Notes under the pieces: model-generated
Seen by the model: only the letters and a program-made list of their open reading frames with translations
Told to the model about the DNA's origin: nothing
Databases searched by the model: none
Shown: positions 24,846 through 62,591 of the stretch, piece by piece
How the letters are laid out: the number at the start of each line of letters is the position of its first letter
How positions within the stretch are numbered: position 1 is the stretch's first letter
Made by a program: the position numbers and the translations under genes
Source: Spirochaetota bacterium
Lineage (GTDB): Bacteria > Spirochaetota > UBA4802 > JAFGJZ01
DNA length: 64,000 nucleotides
Direction of reading: 5' to 3'
Assembly: GCA_027858855.1 (NCBI GenBank)
Contig: JAQIBV010000021.1
Span: 66,816 to 130,815 of the forward strand

Positions 24846-26727
24846 ATTTCTCTTCTTTTTTATTAACATCTACTTTTGAAATATCAACACGTTTAATTCC
24901 CAGTGTTTTTTGCAAAGCCTTTACGGTTTTCGGGGTCTTCGGGTCATCCTTTCGTCCAAGAACAGCATAAATCTGTTGAGGTTTCCGTTTGCCCTTTACT
25001 GTAATTTTTCTCATTGCTTCAACTTTAAAGATATCCTTAACCAGTTGGTATGAGTTATCAGAGATTAGTATATCAGTACCGAAAGCCTTGTTCAGTCCCT
25101 CGACTCTTGATGCAAGGTTTACAGCATCACCAATAACGGTATACTCCATCCGGTCATGAGAACCAATTTGCCCAGCAATTACCGGTCCAGTATTTATTCC
25201 GCATCCGATCCTGATGATCGGTTTTTTAGGACCACCACGTTTTTTGTTAAACTTTATCAAAGCTTGACGCATCATCAGCGCCCCGTCTATTGCATTTTCT
25301 GTATCATTTCCATGTGAAACCGGGGTTCCCCATACCGCCATGACGGCATCACCAATGAACTTATCCACAACACCATGTGTTTTACTAACACAGTTGACCA
25401 TCTCTGTCATGTACTCATTCAGAAATTCGACAACCTCTTCCGGTTCAAGCTCTTCAGAAATTGCTGTAAAAGATCGGATATCAGAAAAGAAGATAGCGGC
25501 AGATTTACGCTCTCCCCCCAGCTTCAGCTCTCCCTTCATAGCCAGTTCAGCTATCTCTTTGTTAACAAATTTACCGAAAGCCTCTTTCATCTTTTCTCGC
25601 TCTTCAAGTCCTTTTCCCATTTCGACGAACGATTCAGTAAGATCCCCTATTTCGTCATTAGAAGCCGGTTTTATCTTCAACCGATATATTCCTGAACTGA
25701 TTTTTCTTGAAGATTCTACAAGCCGCTTAATAGGGTTAGTCAAAGTTTTAGAAAAGATGTAGACCACCATCATTGTAATCATCAAAAGAATTATAGTTAT
25801 ATAAATATTTCTTTTTTTCAGAATCCTAACAGCTTCAAGAGCAGTCTCGCGATCAACAGTGCTGATTATACCAACGCCGGCAAAATCGGTACGATAAAAA
25901 GAACCTATCTGATCAACTCCCTTCTCATCATTATATGTAATCTGCCCATTATTCAATGATCCAGTCAAAAGCTCTTTTACAATTTCATTTGAGGAGTAGT
26001 CAATACTGCTGACAAGCAGTGAGTTATCAGGATGGGCGATCAACTCTCCGTTTCCATTAACAATGTAGGTCATGTATTCGTTATAAGACTGAACAGCCTC
26101 CAGAAAGACGTTCATGGAAAAATATACAACGAGGATTTGAGAGGAGGAATCTTCTTTTTCAAAAACCACGGGAAAGCTTAGTGCGAGTACCGGGTACTCA
26201 AAAGGCAGTGACGAGTTATAAATTGAAGCAACGCCATTAAATGCCGGTTCAAACCTTTTGTTTTCAGAAAGAACAATATCACGAAAATTAAAAACACCAA
26301 GCTCTATGCGTTCAATTAACGCATCATTACGGTAATCCTTAATTACTGATACACCTGCATCCCTCTTTTTCACTAGTGCAATATAGAAAATACTCTCTTC
26401 ATTATCAAGAAGATGGCGCCGGTAAAGACCCATAGACCCTGCAGGAGAGAGAGTTTCCTCATCAGAGCCTCCCGGCAAATGGCTACCGAAAGAACTTAAC
26501 GCAATATAGTTAGCACGGTTTATTAAACTATTCAAATCAGTTTTGACTTTCATCCCAACAACCTGCGATTTATCGCTGGTCACCTCTTGAATTCGCACAA
26601 CAGAGTCACCTTCAAAGAAATAAGTTGTGATATAGGTTAAACCAGTAAGCGAGAGAGCCAGTATCAGCGAAATCATCAAAATCATTTTAAAACCGATTGT
26701 AAAACGTCTGCCTTTCTGTTTTTTCAT
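24826..26727 (-). CDS. Cache-HAMP adenylate/guanylate cyclase (class III)
   Basis: A 633-residue membrane signalling enzyme. Order: transmembrane segment, double-Cache-like periplasmic domain (residues about 40-310), second transmembrane segment (ITIILLMITMMVVYIF), HAMP (TNPIKRLVESSRKISSGIYR) and a class III cyclase domain. Catalytic features are FFSDIRSFT (metal Asp), the second metal Asp in DKFIGDAVMAVWG, and YTVIGDAVNLASRVE. The Lys before FIGDAV and the Asp in IGDAVN are the residues usual for ATP, so it should make cAMP. I chose ATG 26727 with AGGG upstream; two earlier in-frame ATGs lack ribosome sites. It is first in the cyclase-FecR-barrel-propeller cluster. Confidence 0.88.
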   Translation of the reverse strand: MKKQKGRRFTIGFKMILMISLILALSLTGLTYITTYFFEGDSVVRIQEVTSDKSQVVGMKVKTDLNSLINRANYIALSSFGSHLPGGSDEETLSPAGSMGLYRRHLLDNEESIFYIALVKKRDAGVSVIKDYRNDALIERIELGVFNFRDIVLSENKRFEPAFNGVASIYNSSLPFEYPVLALSFPVVFEKEDSSSQILVVYFSMNVFLEAVQSYNEYMTYIVNGNGELIAHPDNSLLVSSIDYSSNEIVKELLTGSLNNGQITYNDEKGVDQIGSFYRTDFAGVGIISTVDRETALEAVRILKKRNIYITIILLMITMMVVYIFSKTLTNPIKRLVESSRKISSGIYRLKIKPASNDEIGDLTESFVEMGKGLEEREKMKEAFGKFVNKEIAELAMKGELKLGGERKSAAIFFSDIRSFTAISEELEPEEVVEFLNEYMTEMVNCVSKTHGVVDKFIGDAVMAVWGTPVSHGNDTENAIDGALMMRQALIKFNKKRGGPKKPIIRIGCGINTGPVIAGQIGSHDRMEYTVIGDAVNLASRVEGLNKAFGTDILISDNSYQLVKDIFKVEAMRKITVKGKRKPQQIYAVLGRKDDPKTPKTVKALQKTLGIKRVDISKVDVNKKEEKYEIKKK

Positions 26728-38233: not shown

Positions 38234-39397
38234 ATGAGTACAAGTTACGGCAGTATAACAAGCGGATTTTCTCTTACACAGGCGGGAGCCATTACGACTC
38301 TTTTAGATCCTTTGACGGTCTTTATGTCTCTTGATATTTTAAAAACTACTTTTGATGAAGATGAAAACCTAACAAGTTATCCAATAGAAAAAAACGGTGG
38401 AGTAATCGGCTTATTACCAAGAGATACCGTCAATGAAAAGAGTAAATCCGTTTGGGAGAAAATGAAGCATAAAGAACTAGATGTATATATCAACCATGCC
38501 CCAGTAATTGCAGACGCTCGGGATAATGTAGAGGTTATTTTTAATAGAATTATCTCTCTTAATCATCCCTTTGATGACATTATCATCTATTATCAAGGTA
38601 GATACTTTGGTGTTTTATTTATTAAAGACCTTCTTAAACAGATATCAACCCTTCGCTCAAACGAACTATTAAAGGCCCGGACGCTTCAGCAGTTTTTTGT
38701 TCAACGCAATCGGGTAACCGCCCCCGATTTTGAATATGATGTCTTTCTTGACATGGCCCACGACCTTGGTGGAGACTTTTATCAAAACATACAAATAGAT
38801 AAACATAGTTATCTTCTGTCGCTTTTTGATGTATGTGGAAAGAACATTACTGCGGCACTAACAACCTCTTTTCTGGCTGCCTTTTTCGCAACTTCACAAC
38901 AGAATGATTTCTTCAAAACAATATCTGAACGTCAACTGGTAGAAAATCTTAACACTCTTCTCTTTGAAATAACACCTAATGACCATTTTGTCGCAGGTGT
39001 CTTCTTTTTTATAAATACCGCAAACAGTGAACTTACAATTTTCAACATGGGTTTTTCACCTGTTTATCTGTTCTCTCCTAAAGGTGGAACAGTTCGGCTA
39101 AAAATTTTACCACCTGAATTTCCGCCCCTCGGCATAGGCACAACAATTGAAGGAGAACCGACAAAAGTAAAAATTGAGCCCGGAATGAAGGTCATCTCTT
39201 ATTCTGATGGACTGACTGATGTTAAGGATCCTTTCGGGGTTACCTTCGGAGAAAAACGGTTAAAAACTCTTTTTACTGACAATTTCAGGAAGACTATTCC
39301 TCAGTTCACAGAGATCCTGAGGAAAACAATTGCAGACTTTAAAAAAAATGCTCCCCAAGCCGATGACATGTCTGTTCTTCATATCAAATTCCGATAG
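38234..39397 (+). CDS. CBS-like domain fused to a SpoIIE-type protein phosphatase
   Basis: A 387-residue cytoplasmic protein. The first 150 residues resemble a CBS-pair module (GVIGLLPRDTVNEKSKSVWE, and FDDIIIYYQGRYFGVLFIKD). A short linker helix (LLKARTLQQFFVQRN) leads to a SpoIIE/PP2C phosphatase with metal-binding residues in MAHDLGGDFYQNI, LFDVCGKNITAALTTSFL, VISYSDGLTDVKD and ADDMSVLHIKF. Such enzymes dephosphorylate anti-anti-sigma-type proteins in partner-switching signalling; the N-terminal module could sense a nucleotide. GGAGG precedes the ATG. Confidence 0.85.
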   Translation: MSTSYGSITSGFSLTQAGAITTLLDPLTVFMSLDILKTTFDEDENLTSYPIEKNGGVIGLLPRDTVNEKSKSVWEKMKHKELDVYINHAPVIADARDNVEVIFNRIISLNHPFDDIIIYYQGRYFGVLFIKDLLKQISTLRSNELLKARTLQQFFVQRNRVTAPDFEYDVFLDMAHDLGGDFYQNIQIDKHSYLLSLFDVCGKNITAALTTSFLAAFFATSQQNDFFKTISERQLVENLNTLLFEITPNDHFVAGVFFFINTANSELTIFNMGFSPVYLFSPKGGTVRLKILPPEFPPLGIGTTIEGEPTKVKIEPGMKVISYSDGLTDVKDPFGVTFGEKRLKTLFTDNFRKTIPQFTEILRKTIADFKKNAPQADDMSVLHIKFR

Positions 39398-39519
39398 AGC
39401 TATAGTTACCAACACTTATTCACAATCATTACTGTATTATGTCACGCATTAATTTTGCTTATATCACTTTCCAACTTTTCAAATCAATCCTTTTTTTTAT
39501 TAATTCAGCTTTTCCTGCT

Positions 39520-39549
39520 TTTTCCCAGATTTTTTAAAATCTGGGAAAA
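39520..39549. repeat. 30-bp palindrome with 14-bp arms
   Basis: TTTTCCCAGATTTT (39520-39533) and AAAATCTGGGAAAA (39536-39549) are exact complements around a TT centre. It lies 122 bases after the CBS-SpoIIE gene and could be a protein-binding site or a weak bidirectional terminator. A second dyad, CTTGAGTA/TACTCAAG at 39551-39585, adjoins it. Confidence 0.75.
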
Positions 39550-39699
39550 TCTTGAGTAAATCTTTCTTTTTCATGTATACTCAAGTTCAATTTTTTATGA
39601 ACATTCCATATTATTTTTTGAAAATTATCTACTGTAAATTAGAGTCTTATTTCCTAAAAAAACAGCTGAATATGTCACATATAGCCCTGAATTAGCTAC

Positions 39700-39708
39700 T
39701 TATCCACA
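39700..39708 (+). promoter_or_regulatory. DnaA box (perfect TTATCCACA)
   Basis: An exact match to the consensus DnaA-binding 9-mer, followed four bases later by the variant TTATTAACA (39712-39720), the same motif type found upstream of dnaA. Confidence 0.6.
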
Positions 39709-39744
39709 GACTTATTAACATTGTTAACAATAATTGTGATTTAC

Positions 39745-39769
39745 GAAATTAATTGAGTCAATTAATTTC
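39745..39769. repeat. 25-bp perfect palindrome
   Basis: GAAATTAATTGA and TCAATTAATTTC are exact complements around a single central G. A related 14-bp palindrome GGAAATTAATTTCC lies at 39809-39822, so the GAAATTAATT half-site recurs within 80 bases. Confidence 0.75.
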
Positions 39770-39949
39770 ATCGCATATACTTATTAATACAGCCATTAAT
39801 TACTGTTTGGAAATTAATTTCCCGATTTTTGTTTGACAGCTTAAACGCCCGAAATAACTGCATTAAAAGCTGAACAAACAGTACTTTTTATACAGTTAGT
39901 TGATTCTGATATTGTTTTTGTTTAAAACTTATGAACTCATTTTGAAGAG

Positions 39950-39972
39950 TTATCCACAATTAATGTGGATAA
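39950..39972. promoter_or_regulatory. Inverted pair of perfect DnaA boxes
   Basis: TTATCCACA (39950-39958) and its reverse complement TGTGGATAA (39964-39972) are separated by five bases, forming a symmetric 23-bp site. Paired inverted boxes are typical of origin or DnaA-regulated regions. Confidence 0.65.
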
Positions 39973-39998
39973 AAAAGAGAACATTATGTCTCTTTTTT
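39971..39998 (+). terminator. A/T-rich hairpin with T-run
   Basis: AAAAAAGAGA (39971-39980) pairs with TCTCTTTTTT (39989-39998) around ACATTATG. The T-run sits on the plus strand, but the stem has only two G-C pairs, so terminator strength is doubtful. It lies 85 bases upstream of the CheX-like gene. Confidence 0.3.
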
Positions 39999-40082
39999 TC
40001 TTGAAAAATAATACGGCTCAAATAGTCTCTATCACAATTCTTCAATAATATTTCTTCATTCAATTTAACAATATCCCCGAAA

Positions 40083-40571
40083 ATGGAGCACAAAGTGAGC
40101 AATTACGCACGAAAATACGCGAAAGGTGTTGAAAACTCTGTAAAACACATTTTTTCGAATTTTCTTAATGATCAATCAGTCTCTGAAGTTTATAATTCTC
40201 AAACCCATAAAGACGATTCCAAACGTCAGACTGTCTGGATTGAAATTGACGGCTCTTTCGAAGGCGAAATAGTTATTCTTTTTCCGGAAGAGACGCTAAA
40301 AAATCTGACAAAGCATTTTAGCCCTAAGGTTCGGGTAAACGCACTTAAAGCGGCAATGCGGGATGTTTCAGGGGAACTTGCCAACCAGATAACCGGCACA
40401 TTGGCAAATCAACTTCAATATATTGATCACAAAGTTCGTCTAGCTCCTCCCGAATTTGATGAAGACCCAATCCAGGTTAAAGCATTTTACGATAATATCA
40501 GCATCTCTTTTGCAACATCATACGGTGGGTTTGACATTGAACTCTACTATAAAGACGGACTCTATACCTAA
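40083..40571 (+). CDS. CheX/CheC-like chemotaxis phosphatase-fold protein
   Basis: A 162-residue protein. Its core, NALKAAMRDVSGELANQITG followed by TLANQL, matches the CheX/CheC active-site helix (E...N motif). The preceding strand FEGEIVILFPEETLKNLTKH and the closing KAFYDNISISFATSYGGFDI also fit the fold. CheX-type proteins dephosphorylate CheY-P. Here the helix reads ELANQ, keeping Glu and Asn, so activity is plausible. No chemotaxis genes adjoin it. The ribosome site is weak. The next gene starts immediately after its stop codon. Confidence 0.7.
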   Translation: MEHKVSNYARKYAKGVENSVKHIFSNFLNDQSVSEVYNSQTHKDDSKRQTVWIEIDGSFEGEIVILFPEETLKNLTKHFSPKVRVNALKAAMRDVSGELANQITGTLANQLQYIDHKVRLAPPEFDEDPIQVKAFYDNISISFATSYGGFDIELYYKDGLYT

Positions 40572-60946: not shown

Positions 60947-61226
60947 TTATGTTACCTCTCTATTATTAATAATTAATTAATTATGTGTTTTATATATATA
61001 GTAATAGTAATAGTAGTCTCTGTTAATATGTTTATATCGTTCATAACTGCTGAAATTACCAGTACTTAGCTGCTTTAATAAAATGTTAACAAGCTTATTG
61101 ATAGCTGTATATAAGTCCTTGTTATTAACATTCATTTTTGGAAAAGCTCAATTCTATATCTTTATGTTAACAACTGTTGATTTAATAAGACTTGTTAACA
61201 CTTTACTAATAACTTATAAACAACAA
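60947..61226. other. 280-bp AT-rich dnaA-dnaN spacer
   Basis: Very AT-rich, with several TGTTAACA and TTGTTAACA-type stretches and one TTATTAACA (61122-61130), the same 9-mer type found upstream of dnaA. No gene is evident. It may hold a dnaN promoter and additional DnaA sites; origins in some bacteria extend into this spacer. Confidence 0.45.
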
Positions 61227-62591
61227 TTAACTCTTCAAATCAGAGATTATATCATCTATTTTTTCTTTCAGACCTTCATCATTTTCAAGTGCTTTTTCAA
61301 TATTATTGCGTGCATTAATAACTGTTGAGTGATCTCTTTTACCAATTAGTTTTCCAATCTCTGTTGTTGTTAACTGAGTTAACCTTGTTGCAAGAAACAT
61401 TGTTATAAAACGTGGCTGAATTATGCTACTGTGACGACTTTTAGATCTAATACTATCTTCAGAAATACCAAAATGCTTTGCAACTTTTACTATAATATCA
61501 TCGATTGTTATTTCTTTGTTTGGTTGTTCTTCAAAAAGAGGACGTAAATACTGTTTTACTACATCTATTGTAATATCCATTTTTTTTATTGTATATATTG
61601 CATGAAGTTTATTCAGGGCGGATTCAAGTAAGCGGATATTAGACTTAATTCTTTTTGCAAGATAGGATATTATTTCGTCACTCAGTTCAAGGTTAATCAG
61701 GTTTGCCTTTTTTCTTAAAATTGCTTCTCTCGTTTCCAGGTTTGGTGCTTTTATATCTGCGAGCAGACCACCTTCAAATCTGGTTCTTAGTCTGTCTGTT
61801 AATAAAGAGAGTTCTCGAGGTGGACGGTCGCTTGTTAATACAATCTGCTTTTTATTCACATGTAAATCATTAAAAGTGTGAAAAAACTCAGTTTGAGTCT
61901 GTTCCTTATTTGCCAAAAATTGTATATCATCAATCATTAATACATCTACATTACGATATTTGATTTTTAAGCTTTGAGTTGCATTTGTTTGGATAGCCTG
62001 TATGAATTCGCTTATAAATTGTTCACTGGTTACATATAGAACTTTTAAATAAGGTTTTTCCTGTAAAATTGCATTTCCTATTGCCTGTAGGAGGTGTGTT
62101 TTACCAAGACCTGAATCTCCGTAAATAAAAAGAGGATTATATTGCCCGGCAGGATTTTTTGATATTGATTCAGCTGCTGCATGAGCAAGTTCATTGTTTG
62201 GCCCGATAATAAAAGTATCAAAAGTATAGGTTGGGTTAAATTCTATGTGCTGAGACAAAGGCTTTTCTGGAGCTTGCCTATTATTTCTAATTTCTGTAGG
62301 CTCTTCAGTTATAGTCGCACTATTCTCAGGGCTTTCGTTATCCATTTCTGTCATGTAATTACAGATAACCTTGTTTCCACAAACAGAATAGACTGTTTCA
62401 TTGATTACATCACTGTAAATTTTTAGAATATGTTCTTTTGCTGTTTCATCCGGAACAATTATTGTAAGTTCATTGTTATCCATTTGTAATGCTTTTGTAT
62501 TTAGAAGCCAGCTGTTAAATGACTGACGGTTCATTTTAGACTGTAATTGTTCTAATACCTGATTCCAGACAGAGTCGTGTGTCTTAAGCAT
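61227..62591 (-). CDS. dnaA: Chromosomal replication initiator DnaA
   Basis: A 454-residue AAA+ initiator. Domain I (residues 1-85) begins DSVWNQVLEQLQSKMNRQSF; a short variable linker follows; domain III has Walker A LFIYGDSGLGKTHLLQAIGN, Walker B VDVLMIDDIQFLANKEQTQT and sensor segments PPRELSLLTDRLRTRFEGGL; domain IV carries the DnaA-box-binding helix GKRDHSTVINARNNIEKAL. I chose ATG 62591 with GGGGAA upstream; a TTG at 62612 is in frame but inside the adjacent DnaA-box-like repeats. It is the first gene of the replication operon. Confidence 0.98.
   Translation of the reverse strand: MLKTHDSVWNQVLEQLQSKMNRQSFNSWLLNTKALQMDNNELTIIVPDETAKEHILKIYSDVINETVYSVCGNKVICNYMTEMDNESPENSATITEEPTEIRNNRQAPEKPLSQHIEFNPTYTFDTFIIGPNNELAHAAAESISKNPAGQYNPLFIYGDSGLGKTHLLQAIGNAILQEKPYLKVLYVTSEQFISEFIQAIQTNATQSLKIKYRNVDVLMIDDIQFLANKEQTQTEFFHTFNDLHVNKKQIVLTSDRPPRELSLLTDRLRTRFEGGLLADIKAPNLETREAILRKKANLINLELSDEIISYLAKRIKSNIRLLESALNKLHAIYTIKKMDITIDVVKQYLRPLFEEQPNKEITIDDIIVKVAKHFGISEDSIRSKSRHSSIIQPRFITMFLATRLTQLTTTEIGKLIGKRDHSTVINARNNIEKALENDEGLKEKIDDIISDLKS

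Follow-up and report, generated by a model that had tools for sequence, protein, structure and literature searches.

What is a cluster of consensus DnaA boxes doing in a gap without genes, 21 kb away from dnaA, in the genome of a Spirochaetota bacterium? The window, which is the whole stretch of 64,000 nucleotides that was analysed, belongs to a 207-kb contig of a genome of 3.35 Mb (63 contigs). A preliminary description of the locus had proposed that it could be the true or a second replication origin, a DnaA-titration site like datA or a centromere-like site. The gap and the sites in and around it are the following (window positions):

38234-39397, gene for a SpoIIE-type phosphatase, flanking the element
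39398-40082, gap of 685 bp with no gene inside
39416-39424, TTATTCACA, a variant listed beside the boxes
39520-39549, 30-bp palindrome TTTTCCCAGATTTT-tt-AAAATCTGGGAAAA with perfect 14-bp arms, outside the conserved module
39671-39681, palindrome TATGTCACATA, next to the left array on its upstream side
39700-39729, plus strand, left array of three head-to-tail DnaA boxes (start spacing 12 and 9 bp)
39700-39708, plus strand, left-array box 1, exact TTATCCACA
39712-39720, plus strand, left-array box 2, TTATTAACA
39721-39729, plus strand, left-array box 3, TTGTTAACA
39745-39769, palindrome GAAATTAATTGAGTCAATTAATTTC of 25 bp, which contains the conserved ATTAATTnACTnAATTAAT site and keeps a fixed distance from the boxes
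39809-39822, 14-bp palindrome GGAAATTAATTTCC
39842-39866, position of the midway palindrome TAAn3CTGRn5YCAGn3TTA, degraded here to TAAACGCCCGAAATAACTGCATTAA (score 0.9)
39950-39958 (plus strand) and 39964-39972 (minus strand), right DnaA boxes, an inverted pair of exact TTATCCACA
40083-40571, cheX, flanking the element downstream

The three exact boxes (at 39700, 39950 and 39964, the last two as an inverted pair), the palindromes of 30, 25 and 14 bp and the lack of a gene were all found as the preliminary description had reported them, and the variant boxes TTATTAACA and TTATTCACA are present as well; the third box of the left array, which it had missed, was revealed by aligning relatives. Exact TTATCCACA occurs three times in these 273 bp and only once more in the 64 kb, at 25361. 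With 40 exact boxes in the whole genome, the chance that any 3 of 40 random positions fall within 273 bp is 0.00026. The TATGTCACATA palindrome is the sole copy in the 207-kb contig, and similar motifs are present in the elements and dnaA-dnaN gaps of some relatives; a palindrome GAAATTAAT, similar to GGAAATTAATTTCC, is found at about the same place in some of them. An intrinsic terminator was looked for in the gap and none was found; the 30-bp palindrome sits after the phosphatase gene and, without a T-run behind it, is not a canonical terminator.

A main origin at 39.7 kb is ruled out by the GC skew, here and in relatives, and by the missing DnaA-trio. The cumulative GC skew of the 207-kb contig was lowest at window position 61502, which lies within dnaA; through 39.7 kb the skew was steadily negative. 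In two relatives, G004 (family f2) and G013 (family f7), the skew also turned at dnaA; the distance from the element to dnaA is 21, 320 and 357 kb in the three genomes where it was measurable. No skew turn was found at the element in the element-bearing contigs of G006, G011, G015, G012 and G035 either, and it is thus absent from the element in eight genomes, the window's own and seven relatives. The DnaA-trio typical of oriC was detected in the dnaA-dnaN gap of 19 of 22 genomes and in none of 35 elements. This intergenic gap, which is probably the oriC of the window's genome, contains the following sites:

60947-61226, minus strand, probable true oriC core in the dnaA-dnaN gap, with trio, variant DnaA boxes and CTG palindrome
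60999-61016, DnaA-trio TAGTAATAGTAATAGTAG
61044-61068, strong CTG palindrome (score 25.7)

The dnaA-dnaN gap is conserved among relatives, and its boxes are of a different type: only 2 of 47 are exact TTATCCACA and the rest are mainly TTAT[CT]AACA, whereas the boxes of the element are mostly exact. This difference may correspond to that between strong and weak sites in E. coli. The earlier remark that the dnaA region lacks the consensus box is right, yet variant boxes of the type TTAT[CT]AACA flank dnaA on both sides. The element has the DnaA-box cluster of an origin and neither its skew turn nor its trio or unwinding motif. No dnaA was found in any of the four genomes of family f3 (G005, G014, G019 and G023; 69-93% complete), three of which carry the element, and this may be a binning gap or a real loss.

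The core of the element is a gapless module of 80 bp, in which ATTAATTnACTnAATTAAT follows, at a fixed distance, a head-to-tail series of three DnaA boxes spaced at 12 and 9 bp. Thirteen sequences were aligned without gaps over the 80 bp, reading TTATCCACAaacTTATCCACAttATCCACAa, a variable stretch of constant length and ATTAATTtACTaAATTAAT. A search carried out with a sequence-only model in 46 genomes of the order and a sample of 347 other Spirochaetota has revealed the module in 38 of the 46, nearly always as one strong match at one place per genome, and in a single genome outside the order. It was not found in two f5 genomes that are 90-91% complete. All named relatives are uncultured metagenome-assembled genomes (MAGs). 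The same array was present upstream of cheX in relatives with a CheX identity of only about 50%; a single-sequence CheX search of genome contigs gave no match, and a search with an alignment gave 33 loci, nearly all labelled Spirochaetes MAGs.

The three clustered boxes were head-to-tail in every copy, and each genome of the order had between 0 and 3 occurrences of ATTAATTnnCnnAATTAAT, most of them within the element. In the f3 copies and part of the f7 copies the ATTAATTnACTnAATTAAT palindrome was lost and the DnaA boxes were kept. An inverted DnaA box, in the window the one at 39964-39972, was detected about 250-283 bp downstream of the module start in 27 of 35 copies, when 0.16 were expected, including 12 of the 19 copies from families absent from model building; this box and the midway palindrome lie outside the search model. 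Between the conserved blocks, which resemble protein sites, the sequence does not align. Judged by this distribution, the element is ancient and single-copy and has long been kept in an uncultured spirochaete order. The copy in the window is not a typical one, with weaker or degraded boxes 2 and 3, a degraded midway palindrome and an extra right-hand TTATCCACA. Given this departure from the consensus, the locus may work without a bend site in this species, or may be changing.

The palindrome TAAn3CTGRn5YCAGn3TTA lies roughly midway between the array and the inverted box, and in 31 of 35 copies its score exceeds 10. Its centre deviated from the midpoint by a mean of 2 bp (sd 5), and the mean arms were 120 and 116 bp. 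The correlation of 0.69 between centre and midpoint is to some extent inherent in the measure, and only the similar mean arm lengths were used. The two arm lengths did not covary (r = 0.02), and a loop, if formed, may therefore not be strictly symmetric.

A weight matrix of this palindrome, built from the elements alone, was applied to other regions and compared with 60 shuffles. In 18 of 22 genomes the dnaA-dnaN gap outscored every one of the shuffles and in one more genome it outscored 59, whereas nothing clear was found upstream of dnaA. Along 400 kb of G013, a score of 16 was reached at three places only: oriC, one other and the element. The palindrome is not restricted to oriC and the element, as a few further copies exist in most genomes and many in four (G005, G015, G029 and G033, with about 14-41 scattered copies by per-strand count, intergenic in the few places looked at); in a few genomes it occurs 20-40 times. 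Tracing the extra copies led to CRISPR leaders: in eight arrays from seven genomes the palindrome is located 10-12 bp from the leader-proximal (first) repeat, and in 4 of the eight a second copy lies at 103-104 bp. The positions are:

L256:1390-1507, CRISPR-leader palindromes
L257:3002-3120, CRISPR-leader palindromes
L259:3040-3064, CRISPR-leader palindrome
L262:221-245, CRISPR-leader palindrome
L270:136-252, CRISPR-leader palindromes
L274:1558-1675, CRISPR-leader palindromes
L278:1512-1536, CRISPR-leader palindrome
L290:1439-1463, CRISPR-leader palindrome

This position resembles that of the IHF sites in proteobacterial CRISPR leaders; the leader of type I-E/I-F systems is a target of IHF, which attaches close to the first repeat and bends the DNA there (PMC9456107, PMC9602844, PMC12259127), and oriC, datA and DARS2 are also served by IHF (PMC10380432). 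The genomes of the order usually encode 1-3 HU-family proteins each. TG/CA steps 9 bp apart fit the kink spacing of IHF and HU, and the TG and CA steps of the palindrome, which have this separation, would suit an HU-family homodimer. We tentatively propose that the order could have its own IHF network, in which one bending protein, perhaps a homodimeric HU-family member, would bind the palindrome at oriC, at the element and at CRISPR leaders.

The element is probably a chromosomal control locus that binds DnaA outside the origin and works like E. coli datA, and among the readings of the preliminary description, whose observations were sound and whose interpretation was partly borne out, titration of the datA type has the best support. 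That DnaA binds here, that the DNA is bent and forms a loop, and that the effect is one of restraint, we infer from the architecture. DnaA would load onto the three tightly packed boxes of high-affinity type, an IHF-like protein would bend the DNA at the midway palindrome, and the array and the inverted box, about 230 bp apart, would thereby come to lie side by side. The closed complex would hold DnaA or inactivate it (titration or ATP hydrolysis), so that re-initiation at the oriC in the dnaA-dnaN gap would be restrained and replication probably restrained or timed.

Like datA, in which an IHF site accompanies the DnaA boxes and their spacing is important (PMC4585315), the element is non-coding, away from oriC and endowed with several DnaA boxes, a putative bend site of a type also present at oriC, and conserved spacing. 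Where datA has its IHF site between the boxes, the element has about midway a different palindrome, the one that takes IHF-like positions in CRISPR leaders and is degraded in the window copy, and it differs from datA in its head-to-tail triple array, distant inverted box, additional palindrome and gene context, the likeness being drawn from architecture. The DnaA-box clusters of B. subtilis also lie outside oriC and may lower free DnaA; however, there are six of them, and a strong phenotype appears only after the loss of the whole set (PMC5295017), and the element is one elaborate copy per genome. With bacterial oriC of the dnaA-dnaN type, the element has in common DnaA boxes and the CTG palindrome, but not the box type, the trio or the position at the skew turn.

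The opposite sign of effect, a DARS-like locus at which the DnaA complex recharges ADP-DnaA to ATP-DnaA and promotes initiation, seems unlikely. DARS1 and DARS2 of proteobacteria are, like the element, single loci with a three-box core and accessory sites, the core of DARS2 being accompanied by IHF and Fis sites (PMC4585315), and once the DNA was bent the array would lie opposite the inverted box. But a DARS depends on a head-to-head orientation of boxes I and II (PMC10380432), and the invariably head-to-tail array argues against such a core.

It is quite unlikely that the element is a promoter region through which DnaA controls the downstream gene, cheX in the window. The element is upstream of cheX in f1, f2, f4, f6 and one f5 genome, with the order coaX-element-cheX in f4 and f6. 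However, the element and cheX are separated by anything between about 60 and 400 bp, the two f5 genomes without the element still have cheX, and in f7 and f3 the module adjoins other genes (coaX, rpiB and an enoyl-CoA hydratase gene; neighbours were named from sequence inspection, without a family search), on which ground the cheX promoter was rejected as the main role. As the neighbours change between families, the element appears to be kept for itself and not as the promoter of one gene.

A role in segregation (like that of a centromere) or in anchoring the nucleoid, with DnaA used in addition, is distinctly improbable. Its single copy, its specific palindrome ATTAATTnACTnAATTAAT and its distances from dnaA would agree with this role; nevertheless, the palindrome was lost in some copies (f3, part of f7) that kept the boxes, and the element is not parS-like, parS being ruled out by the lack of any TGTTTCACGTGAAACA-like match with up to 3 mismatches near it. 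The centromere proposal of the preliminary description thus gained no positive support. Three parS-like sites with 2 mismatches were found on other contigs (G000:C2:44246, C4:5771 and C53:26487) and none on the contig of the window.

A second or conditional origin, rarely used, is very improbable: the DnaA boxes, an AT-rich stretch and the palindrome common to oriC would suit it, but the skew and trio results given above assign the marks of oriC to the dnaA-dnaN gap. A structured non-coding RNA is hardly credible: the gap has no Rfam match, and its conserved blocks have the appearance of protein sites. Compared with shuffles, the folding of the region is somewhat better (z = -2.57), an effect due mainly to the self-complementarity of the boxes and palindromes.

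A literature search, with few subscription papers within reach, has turned up no account of a locus like this one from Spirochaetota. In the literature surveyed, loci that alter the nucleotide state of DnaA are described from E. coli and other proteobacteria, and the Bacillus clusters act more simply. The element would be a variant form of the known DnaA control loci and, if Spirochaetota indeed have such a locus, present once per genome throughout an order, dedicated DnaA-control sites would have arisen or persisted much more widely. If the reading of one bending protein is also true, the order would serve the same three kinds of site as proteobacterial IHF through a different DNA sequence. 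The palindrome common to oriC and CRISPR leaders could be used as bait DNA for the protein that does the work of IHF in bacteria lacking it.
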